NCBI RefSeq assembly: GCF_003287355.1
Contig: NZ_QMIM01000018.1
Coordinates: 1-64,000 of the forward strand
Length of the DNA stretch: 64,000 nucleotides
Source of the DNA: Halorubrum sp. 48-1-W
GTDB taxonomy: Archaea > Halobacteriota > Halobacteria > Halobacteriales > Haloferacaceae
Reading direction: 5' to 3'
The stretch's first letter is position 1; every line of letters starts with the position of its first letter. A model generated the notes under the pieces. That model ran no database searches, was not told the origin of the DNA, and was given only the letters and a program-made list of their open reading frames with translations. The translations under genes were made by a program, and so were the position numbers. Positions 15,085 through 18,662 of the stretch are shown piece by piece.

Positions 15085-17784
15085 TCACCGCAACCGTCCG
15101 AACAGCGTGTAGTCGTCGTCCGGCTCGTACCGGCGGAACAGGAGGCTGTTGGCGAGCACGCTCACGCTGGAGAACGCCATCGCGGCGGCGGCCAGCGCGG
15201 GCTGGAGGAGCCCGAGCGACGCCAGCGGGATCATCGCCGTATTGTAGCCGAACGCCCACACGAGGTTCTGTTTGATCTTCCGGAGCGTGGCGTCGGAGAC
15301 CCGGATCGCCTTTACCACGTCGAGCGGGTCGTCACGCATCAGCGTCACGTCGGCCGCCTCGATCGCCACGTCCGTCCCGCTCCCGATGGCGGTCCCGACG
15401 TACGCGACCGCCAGCGCCGGCGCGTCGTTGACGCCGTCGCCGACCATCATCGCCTTGCGCCCGTCGGCTTGGATCGACTCCACCGCGTCGGATTTGTCCT
15501 CGGGGAGGACCTCCGCCCGGACGTCGGCGGGATCGATCCCGACCCGCTCTGCGACCGCGCGGGCGGTCCGCTCGTTGTCGCCGGTGATCATCATCACGTC
15601 GAGACCGCGCTCGCGGAGGGCTGTGACCGCGTCGGCCGCGCTCGCTTTCACCGTGTCGGCGTCGGCGACCACGCCGAGGAGTTCCCCCGCGTCCGTGCCG
15701 GCTGGCACGCGGGCGACGAGCATCGCCGTCTTCCCCTCGGCTTCGAGCCGTTCCATCGTCCCCGCCGCGGGTTCCGGGTCGATCCCGTTCTCGCGGAGGA
15801 GCTTCCGGTTGCCGACGAGTATTTCGTCGCCCCCGACCGTCGCGCGGATGCCCTGACCGGGCACGTTCTCGAAGCGTTCGGCGTCCCCGACGTCGAGCCC
15901 GCGTTCCTCGGCACCCTCGACGATGGCGCGCGCGAGCGGGTGCTCGCTGTCCCGCTCGGCCGTCGCGGCGAGCTGGAGCATCTCGTCGGCCGTGAGACCG
16001 TCGGTCCCGTCGGGTCCCGTCCCGGGTTCGTCGCCGGAGCCCGCCGTCGAGGCGGTCCCGCCGTCGGGGATGGGCTCGCCGTCGGAGCCGAACGCGACCA
16101 CGTCGGTCAGTTCCATCGCGCCCTCGGTGAGCGTCCCCGTCTTGTCGAAGACGACCGTGTCGACGTCCTTGGCGCGCTCCAGCACGTCGCCCCCCTTGAA
16201 CAGGACGCCGTTGCGTGCGCCGATGGAGGTACCGACCATCGTGGCCGCCGGCGTCGCCAACCCGAGCGCGCAGGGACAGGCGATGAGCACCGCCGAGGCG
16301 AACACGACGATCGCGAACTCGACGACCGAGACGCCGCCGCCCGCGGCCGCCGGGCCGCCGGCGACGAGCCCCCACAGCGGGAGCGCGCTCACGAACCCGG
16401 CGAGCGCCTCGGGGAACAGGAACCAGACCGTCCCCCACAACAGGGCGTTCGCGATGACCGCGGGGACGAAGTACGCCGAGATGCGGTCGGCGAGGTTCTG
16501 GATCTCCGGCTGGCGCGACTGCGCCTCCTTCACCGTCCGGACGATCTGTTGGAGGGCGGTGTCCTCGCCCACATTCGTCGCCTCGACGACGAGGACGCCG
16601 TTCTCGTTGATCGTGGAGCCGACGACCTCGTCACCCTCGCGCTTCTCGACCGGGACCGACTCGCCGGTCACCATGGACTCGTCGACCGCGCTCTGCCCGT
16701 CGACGACGACGCCGTCGGTGGGGATCTTCTCGCCCGGCCGGATCTTCATCCGGTCGCCTGACTCGACCGCGTCGAGCGACACCTCCTCTTCGGTGCCGTC
16801 GGCGTCGACGAGCGTCGCCGTCTCGGCCTCCATCTCCAGTAGCTTCCGGAGCGCCTCGCCGGCCTGCCCCTTCGAACGGGCCTCGAGGTAGTTGCCGAGG
16901 GTGATGAACACGAGGATGAACGCGGCTGTGTCGAAGTAGAGGCTCCCCGCGATCAACCCGGAGAGGACCGCGACTGAGTAGAGGTACGCGGTGGTGGACC
17001 CGAGCGCGATCAGCACGTCCATGTTGGCACGCCGGTTCCTGACGAGCGCCGTGTAGGAGTTCCGGTAGAACGGCCGGCCGAGCACGACCTGTACCGGCGT
17101 CGCGAGCAGGAACTGTAGCCAGCCGACCTCGACGCCGACGACGGTTCCCGGGAGGAGCCCCCCGTCGAACAGCAGGTGGTCGGCCATGAACGCGAACAGG
17201 GGGACCGCGAGGGCTGTACCGAACAGCGTCAGCCGGAGCTGTCTGCGGATCTCCTCCTCTCGTGCAGCGTCGCGGGCGCTTTGACCCGAATCGGCGTCGG
17301 AACCGTCGGCAGTGGAACCGGCGTCCCCTGCGGTCCCGTCGTCACTGCCGGCGCCGCCCCCACGCTCGCGGACCGGCGAGTAACCGGCCGACTCGATCGC
17401 GTCGTACAGGTCCGGGAGCGACGCGTCGGCGGGGTTGTACGTGACCTGTGCCTCGTCGGTGGCGTAGTTCACGTCGGCGTCGATCACGCCCGGCGTGTCC
17501 GTCAGGGCCTCCGCGTTCGCCTCGGCGCAGTTCGCACACGACATGTCCGTGATCGCGACCGTGGTCGTCTCCGAGACCGCGCCGTAGCCGGCCGACGCGA
17601 CCGCGTCGTAGATCTCGCGGAGCGATACCGTCCCGGGATCGTACTCGACCGTCGCCTCGTCGGTGGCGTAGTTCGCCGTCGCCGACGCCACGCCGTCGAG
17701 GTCCTCGAGGGTGTCCCGTATCGTCGCCGAACAGTTGGCACAGGACATCCCCGTGACGTCGAGGTGAGCCGTTCTGTCTGTCAT
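15085..17784 (-). CDS. copA: Copper-translocating P1B-type ATPase
   Basis: This 899-residue membrane ATPase exports copper from the cytoplasm. Two N-terminal HMA domains carry CxxC pairs at C15/C18 and C83/C86. A charged Gly/Ser linker follows, then eight expected membrane helices. The ion-path motif CPC is at 503-505. DKTGT, with phosphorylated Asp547, the TGES actuator loop, SEHPLARAI (the HP motif of P1B pumps) and [10 protein letters not shown] are all present. I start at ATG 17784, directly before [18 protein letters not shown]; the longer ORF to 17868 adds non-homologous residues. It lies downstream of, and codirectional with, the TRASH-domain regulator, with its own promoter at 17819-17870. 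CPC and the HMA type point to Cu(I) or Ag(I). Confidence 0.93.
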
Positions 17785-17818: not shown

Positions 17819-17870
17819 TTTCTCCTCTCAGTGTCGGGGTCGGAGTGGGTCGAAACCTTCGATCCCAAAG
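17819..17870 (-). promoter_or_regulatory. Copper regulon promoter/operator upstream of copA
   Basis: Reading toward copA, CTTTGGGATCGAA (17870-17858) is followed after 13 nt by TCCGACCC (17844-17837) and after 11 nt by GGAGAAA. The box begins about 75 nt before the ATG. The same three blocks at identical spacing precede the HMA chaperone at 18611, so I infer a shared binding site for the TRASH-domain regulator plus a promoter core. Confidence 0.75.
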
Positions 17871-17910
17871 CAACGGCGCCGATCGCGGAGCAGCTCGTCG
17901 ATCCGATCGG

Positions 17911-18567
17911 TCACACACCCTCCTCCAGTCGGCGGTATCGGTCCCGGAATCGGCCGAGACACGACGGACAGCAGAAGTGGTACACGTCGCCGTCGATCCG
18001 CGTCGTCTCGCCCTCGCTGTCGACCGTGTTGGAACACTCCGCGCAGGTCAGCGCGAACTCGACACCCTCGATCGAGGGCGTCCACTCGACCTCGTCGACG
18101 AGCGTGACCGTCCGGTCGTCGACGGGGAGCCCCTCGAGGAGGCCGGCGAGCCACTCGCGGACGGACCGACGCCCGATCCGGGCGTAAAACCGCAGGTTCC
18201 CCTCGGCGGTGACGAACACATGCTCGACGGCCTCGGCATCGCGGAGGCGCTCGCGGGCGGCCTCCAAAGGGTCACCGACCTCGTCCGGGTCCGCCCCCGA
18301 ATCCGGTCCCTCGCCCGCGTCGACCGCGAGGTCGGCGTCGACCGCGAGATCGACGTCGACCATGACGGGGACCCCCCCGCGTAGTTTCGTCCGATCGACG
18401 TCGACCGTGAACCCGCGGATGACGCCGGCCTCCTCCAGCCGCGTGACGCGGTCCGAGACCGCCGGACCGGAGAGCCCCACCCGGTCGCCGATCTCGCGGT
18501 ACGGCCGGCGGGCGTCCACAGCCAGAAGCGAGAGGATCTCCACGTCGGTGTCGTCCAACTCACGCAT
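17911..18567 (-). CDS. AsnC-type HTH regulator with C-terminal TRASH metal-sensing domain
   Basis: This 218-residue regulator begins with an Lrp/AsnC winged HTH (MRELDDTDVEILSLLAVDARRPYREIGDRVGLSGPAVSDRV...), has a divergent central region with an Asp/Ala-rich insert, and ends in a TRASH domain (CAECSNTV...YHFCCPSCLGRF). TRASH domains bind soft metals and are known copper sensors in archaeal CopR/CopT-type regulators. ATG 18567 gives a canonical AsnC start. It is flanked by copA and, divergently, the HMA chaperone, both carrying the same operator-like box. Regulation of copper efflux is a strong inference from the context; whether it activates or represses cannot be read from the sequence. 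Confidence 0.88.
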   Translation of the reverse strand: MRELDDTDVEILSLLAVDARRPYREIGDRVGLSGPAVSDRVTRLEEAGVIRGFTVDVDRTKLRGGVPVMVDVDLAVDADLAVDAGEGPDSGADPDEVGDPLEAARERLRDAEAVEHVFVTAEGNLRFYARIGRRSVREWLAGLLEGLPVDDRTVTLVDEVEWTPSIEGVEFALTCAECSNTVDSEGETTRIDGDVYHFCCPSCLGRFRDRYRRLEEGV

Positions 18568-18610
18568 GGACGATCGGAGGAACGGCGCACACAAGAGCGT
18601 TTCCTCGGAA

Positions 18611-18662
18611 CTTTGGGATCGAAAGCGAGAGTACCTTCCGACCCTAGGTCTCGAAGGAGAAA
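18611..18662 (+). promoter_or_regulatory. Copper regulon promoter/operator upstream of the HMA chaperone
   Basis: CTTTGGGATCGAA (18611-18623), then TCCGACCC (18637-18644), then GGAGAAA (18656-18662). The gaps are 13 and 11 nt, the same as in the copA promoter, and the ATG follows about 75 nt after the box ends. The region lies between two divergent genes, so it could also autoregulate the TRASH-domain gene. Confidence 0.75.

Follow-up and report, generated by a model that had tools for sequence, protein, structure and literature searches.

The question raised by the copper locus of Halorubrum sp. 48-1-W is whether a short sequence repeated in front of its two copper-handling genes is the operator of the regulator encoded between them. 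We addressed this question in a stretch of 64,000 nucleotides (contig NZ_QMIM01000018.1, positions 1 to 64,000), here called the window, and in orthologous loci fetched at the levels of genus, family, and class. An earlier note, made from the letters of the window alone, had proposed that three blocks at exact spacing precede both copA and the gene for an HMA chaperone, that the first block is the operator of a regulator with an AsnC HTH and a TRASH domain, and that the later blocks are promoter core.

The copper genes and the regulator between them

The locus comprises three genes. The middle one, copR, shares its strand with copA, which it precedes, and is divergent from copZ:

15085..17784, minus strand: copA, 899-aa Cu(I) P1B-type ATPase carrying two HMA domains at its N terminus (TIGR01511 and TIGR01525 over cut-off; start set by orthologues)
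17911..18567, minus strand: copR, regulator with AsnC-type HTH, RAM-like region, and C-terminal TRASH domain (CxxC...CCxxC), 218 aa
18698..18895, plus strand: copZ, single-HMA copper chaperone with an MSCEHC motif, 65 aa (Pfam/NCBIfam profiles)

The TTG at 17868, which a mechanical ORF call offers as the copA start, was rejected; the orthologues set the start at the ATG at 17784.

Domain profiles confirmed that the gene between copA and the chaperone gene encodes an AsnC-HTH and TRASH regulator, as had been suggested. Two AsnC/Lrp-type HTH profiles matched the N terminus of CopR above their cut-offs (PF13404, E 2.4e-15; PF13412, E 2.4e-14), and the C-terminal TRASH domain, a member of the Pfam family TRASH_HVO_1752_C, matched PF24273 over its full length (88 bits against 27). 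Five CopR cysteines (C175, C178, C199, C200, and C203) are invariant across 15 homologues. The region between the two domains is predicted, in a model of modest confidence (pLDDT 75), to follow the beta-alpha-beta-beta-alpha-beta order of a RAM-like fold, and the matches of the model in the PDB were Lrp/AsnC proteins (best E 5.5e-10, with a low whole-chain TM-score of 0.32). The regulator is the haloarchaeal CopR (HVO_1752/VNG1179C-like, with HTH, RAM, and TRASH). The TRASH_HVO_1752_C family is present in 388/391 genomes of the class, and the gene order copZ-copR-copA is kept in most of the loci fetched.

The relative of this protein in H. salinarum, VNG1179C, is a known copper-dependent activator. 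This Lrp and TRASH protein controls the pump together with two HMA chaperones, and cells lacking either the regulator or the pump are severely impaired under copper (PMC3551603; PMC3600143). The two systems are alike in placing an Lrp/AsnC-TRASH regulator over a Cu P1B ATPase and HMA chaperones (yvgX/VNG0700G, VNG0702H, and VNG2581H in H. salinarum), but the locus number of the H. salinarum regulator is distant from those of the pump and chaperone, whereas copZ, copR, and copA are adjacent in the window. The Sulfolobus cop cluster (CopT/CopR, CopM, CopA) likewise brings together a TRASH regulator, a copper chaperone, and CopA, although CopM is a TRASH chaperone and not an HMA one.

A conserved palindrome in the copA and copZ promoters

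The pattern CTTTGGGATCGAA-N13-TCCGACCC-N11-GGAGAAA occurs in two exact copies in the window, at 17819-17870 (minus strand, before copA) and 18611-18662 (plus strand, before copZ), both with 0 mismatches. No match appeared in 100 dinucleotide shuffles with up to 3 mismatches allowed, and the chance expectation is zero, so the exact-spacing pair stands as the earlier note had it. The 13-mer CTTTGGGATCGAA occurs twice in the whole 3.58-Mb genome, only before copA and copZ, and the distance from box center to ATG is 79 nt for copA (17784) and 80 nt for copZ (18698). The blocks had also been said to stand out from differing surroundings. They do so as peaks, but the rest of the two promoters is related as well: 47/88 aligned positions are identical, and the three blocks are thus peaks inside related promoters.

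In aligned orthologous promoters, the box turned out to extend by two bases on its right into a 15-bp palindrome, CTTTSGAWTCSAAAG. The proposed 13-bp operator therefore holds up as a shared and conserved putative regulatory site, but its unit is the longer, nondirectional palindrome; the box as a directional 13-mer was rejected, as the palindrome occurs in either orientation. Because a palindrome has no direction, the shared orientation of the two copies relative to their genes, which is present as described, carries little information, and the copy in the copZ-copR spacer would be able to serve both genes. The promoter elements, with the distal and proximal operators named O1 and O2, are as follows:

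17856..17870, minus strand: putative distal operator O1 of copA, CTTTGGGATCGAAGG, 13/15 fit to CTTTSGAWTCSAAAG, center 17863 (from conservation)
17837..17844, minus strand: block 2 before copA, TCCGACCC, moderately conserved, at the edge of a degenerate second operator
17819..17825, minus strand: block 3 before copA, GGAGAAA (TCGAAGCAGAAAACC in relatives), BRE/TATA-like, with a core function suggested by its position
18611..18625, plus strand: putative distal operator O1 in the copZ-copR spacer, CTTTGGGATCGAAAG, 14/15 fit to CTTTSGAWTCSAAAG, center 18618 (from conservation)
18637..18644, plus strand: block 2 before copZ, TCCGACCC (from the promoter alignment)
18643..18657, plus strand: putative degenerate proximal operator O2 of copZ, three turns (~32 bp) from O1, with its right half, TCGAAGG, at 18651-18657
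18656..18662, plus strand: block 3 before copZ, GGAGAAATAC, probable BRE/TATA-like core by position and conservation

Under a looser middle pattern, GRW, the copZ O1 has 0 mismatches and the copA O1 has 1. The spacer O1, 80 nt before copZ, is centered 51 nt before the start of copR, so the copR promoter is probably part of the circuit. In length and symmetry, CTTTSGAWTCSAAAG is a typical Lrp/AsnC dimer site of the 13-15 bp palindrome class. Archaeal Lrp sites are palindromes that cluster at two or three helical turns (PMC2995911), and the operators of Ss-LrpB, Ptr2, and FL11 (13-15 bp palindromes with two- or three-turn spacing) resemble the putative operators described here. The effectors of these three regulators are mostly amino acids, whereas here the fused TRASH domain suggests copper.

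The check on orthologous copA and copZ promoters in related genomes, from at least 9 families, found the shared site conserved. Promoters were clustered by grouping below 80% identity, and loci fetched for holding the motif were left out. A best match of at least 12/15 was present in 49/53 copA clusters (1.2% in shuffles) and in 54/61 copZ clusters, leaving 4/53 and 7/61, respectively, with no such site. The consensus CTTTSGAWTCSAAAG was built partly from the tested sequences, and genera beyond that of the window support it as well (37/42 copA and 35/42 copZ clusters at 12/15 or better). Position is also preserved: The operator center lies 77-81 nt before the start in 46 of the 49 copA clusters with such a match, and copZ operators are centered either 76-80 or 45-49 nt from the start codon, a difference of 31 bp. 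Both palindrome and position persist where the flanking sequence has fully diverged. Further, copA genes with no neighboring copR (L178, L179, L186, L191, L196, L199, L200, and L202) keep the site 77-80 nt upstream, which suggests a site that accompanies its target and acts in trans.

A context-free scan of 52 genomes of the genus recovered 43 sites when up to one mismatch was allowed, where the reversed control gave 1, and ~34 of the 43 adjoin cop genes (a count made by joining scan sites to the loci that were read). When the genome of the window was searched for further targets with the looser pattern, the only 1-mismatch match besides the two cop sites lay within an ORF whose translation resembles transcription factor B (L035), and matches at 2 mismatches appear to be background. 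No cop gene was found beside the genus matches at L181, L185, L189, L194, and L207, which are mostly in or beside unrelated ORFs. The genome of L181 (G112) has four copies of CTTTCGATTCCAAAA, which lie on short contigs, include a pair 90 bp apart, and have no cop genes near; these copies look like a repeat element.

The second site and the probable promoter core

A second site accompanies the operator in many promoters. Among copA promoters, a right half-site lies 32 bp from the operator center in 34/73 sequences, and full second sites (at least 10/15) peak at a spacing of 31 bp, with 13 observed against ~0.12 expected. The spacing of 30-32 bp, or three helical turns, is clear class-wide. Within the window, O2 is weak, being represented by a half-site at copZ and, at its weakest, by a very faint trace at copA. 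Other genera have a strong full copy at the O2 position (L015, L058-L062). In the copZ promoters of L015, L016, and L058-L062, the better palindrome touches the TATA-like element (CTTTGGATTCGAAG followed directly by CAGAAAA), and the distal one is weaker. On this pattern, operator strength has moved between distal and proximal positions among genera.

The earlier assignment of both later blocks to the promoter core is supported for one of them. Block 3 is conserved in relatives as TCGAAGCAGAAAA or TCGAAGCAGAAAAC, and the AA at +43/+44 from the operator center, 34-37 nt before the start, is almost invariant; this conservation supports a BRE/TATA-like core, whose position would suit a short-leader transcript. 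For block 2, a core role is not clear; in the aligned promoters its conservation is moderate, and it overlaps the degenerate second operator ~31 bp downstream on that operator's left side. We also rejected a long inverted repeat with block 1 as one arm and block 2 as the other (GGGATCGAA...TTCCGACCC), which fits the window well but does not persist in relatives.

A probable copper circuit, its alternatives, and its possible reach

Taking the conserved sites together with the known systems, we consider it highly likely that the shared box is the CopR operator and that copper-loaded CopR on O1 and O2 activates copA and copZ. A CopR dimer would occupy the 15-bp CTTTSGAWTCSAAAG, centered 79-80 nt before copA and copZ and ~43 bp ahead of AGAAA, a weak TATA-like element, and a second, weaker site would be available three helical turns downstream, against the BRE. 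This spacing would place neighboring dimers of a CopR oligomer on the same face of the DNA. Cu(I) would load the TRASH cysteines, whereupon CopR would aid TFB/TBP initiation at the weak promoters and raise the CopA pump and the CopZ chaperone; the spacer O1 probably tunes copR too. From the sites, spacing, conservation, gene linkage, and protein domains that were observed, and by analogy, we infer CopR binding, oligomer contacts, copper dependence, and activation rather than derepression.

In P. furiosus, CopR binds a 15-bp semi-palindrome immediately before the BRE and leaves footprints at one-turn intervals; it activates copA, and the divergent copR promoter is repressed (PMC7830388). That protein (PF0739) shares with the CopR of the window an HTH and a TRASH domain, a 15-bp site upstream of the BRE, and a divergent copR promoter, and activation of copA is the sign proposed here as well. 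The P. furiosus motif, TTNNCAWWWTGNNAA, is directly upstream of the BRE, whereas CTTTSGAWTCSAAAG in the window is ~43 bp upstream of the TATA element with a second site three turns nearer; the window system also differs in having no His tail and in including the HMA chaperone CopZ.

The same arrangement could be read with the opposite sign, with CopR mainly a repressor whose apo form on O1 and O2 blocks TFB/TBP until copper releases it. The placement of O2 against or over the BRE would suit such a role, as would the genera in which the best palindrome abuts the TATA element (L015, L058-L062), and the CopR of Thermococcus is reported to act with a sign opposite to that of Pyrococcus (PMC7830388). 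However, deletion of VNG1179C in H. salinarum brings a dramatic loss of copper fitness, reviews class VNG1179C as an activator, and a weak TATA-like element fits activation; we regard a mainly repressive CopR as unlikely. Haloarchaea have several Lrp-like proteins, and 8 matches to the CopR query occur in this genome, so the box might instead be the operator of another regulator. This is very improbable given that the site occurs almost exclusively at cop genes, that the TRASH family of CopR is found in almost every genome of the class (388/391), and that CopR is the Lrp-like protein encoded next to a palindrome of Lrp type. Last, the 47/88 matching positions might reflect a recent duplication or a shared core promoter with no operator. 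This explanation is hardly credible and, in the sequences compared, is already contradicted by the pattern of conservation: The palindrome and its position survive in lineages with fully diverged flanks, it lies ~43 bp upstream of the TATA-like element and so outside the core, and copA genes unlinked to copR carry it.

The cop genes also occur on nearly identical segments in many genera. At loci L124-L141 and L163 (7.6 kb each), copZ, copR, and copA are joined by an aconitase gene, and at least 7.3 kb of this segment agree at 97-100% identity among Halorubrum, Haloarcula, Natrinema, Halorussus, Haloplanus, Halobellus, Halopenitus, Halarchaeum, Halorhabdus, Halorientalis, Halovenus, and Halosegnis. 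On this level of identity, the segment is a recently spread copper cassette with its operators intact. The aconitase gene (L124:314-3130, minus strand) is directly downstream of copZ on the same strand. Copper damages iron-sulphur enzymes, and the cassette aconitase may therefore be a spare enzyme under copper control. In one genome, an ArsP-type permease that ends in a YHS/TRASH-like domain (L205:1501-2973) has CTTTCGATTCCATAG centered ~77 nt before its start, which makes it a possible further CopR target. A broader and rather doubtful idea, which we offer tentatively, is a class-wide two-site code, made of a distal and a BRE-proximal palindrome at three-turn spacing, in which one bound CopR oligomer would switch from blocking TFB to recruiting it on Cu(I), with a regulon that may extend to the L205 permease and the L124 aconitase.

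The regulator, its domain make-up, and the haloarchaeal copper regulon were already known. The main texts searched give no operator sequence for VNG1179C, and predicted motifs are in figures and supplements (PMC4236453, PMC4177876). We found no description of the operator sequence and its paired spacing in main texts, and an earlier motif may exist in supplements; both appear to be undescribed so far. If the assignment is right, the copper regulator of nearly every sampled haloarchaeon would have an operator defined at sequence level and open to testing, from which regulons could be predicted in such genomes and a compact system for copper-inducible expression in halophiles could be designed. 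Within one class, it could also be asked how one operator, placed at either of two distances from the TATA element, activates or represses an archaeal promoter.
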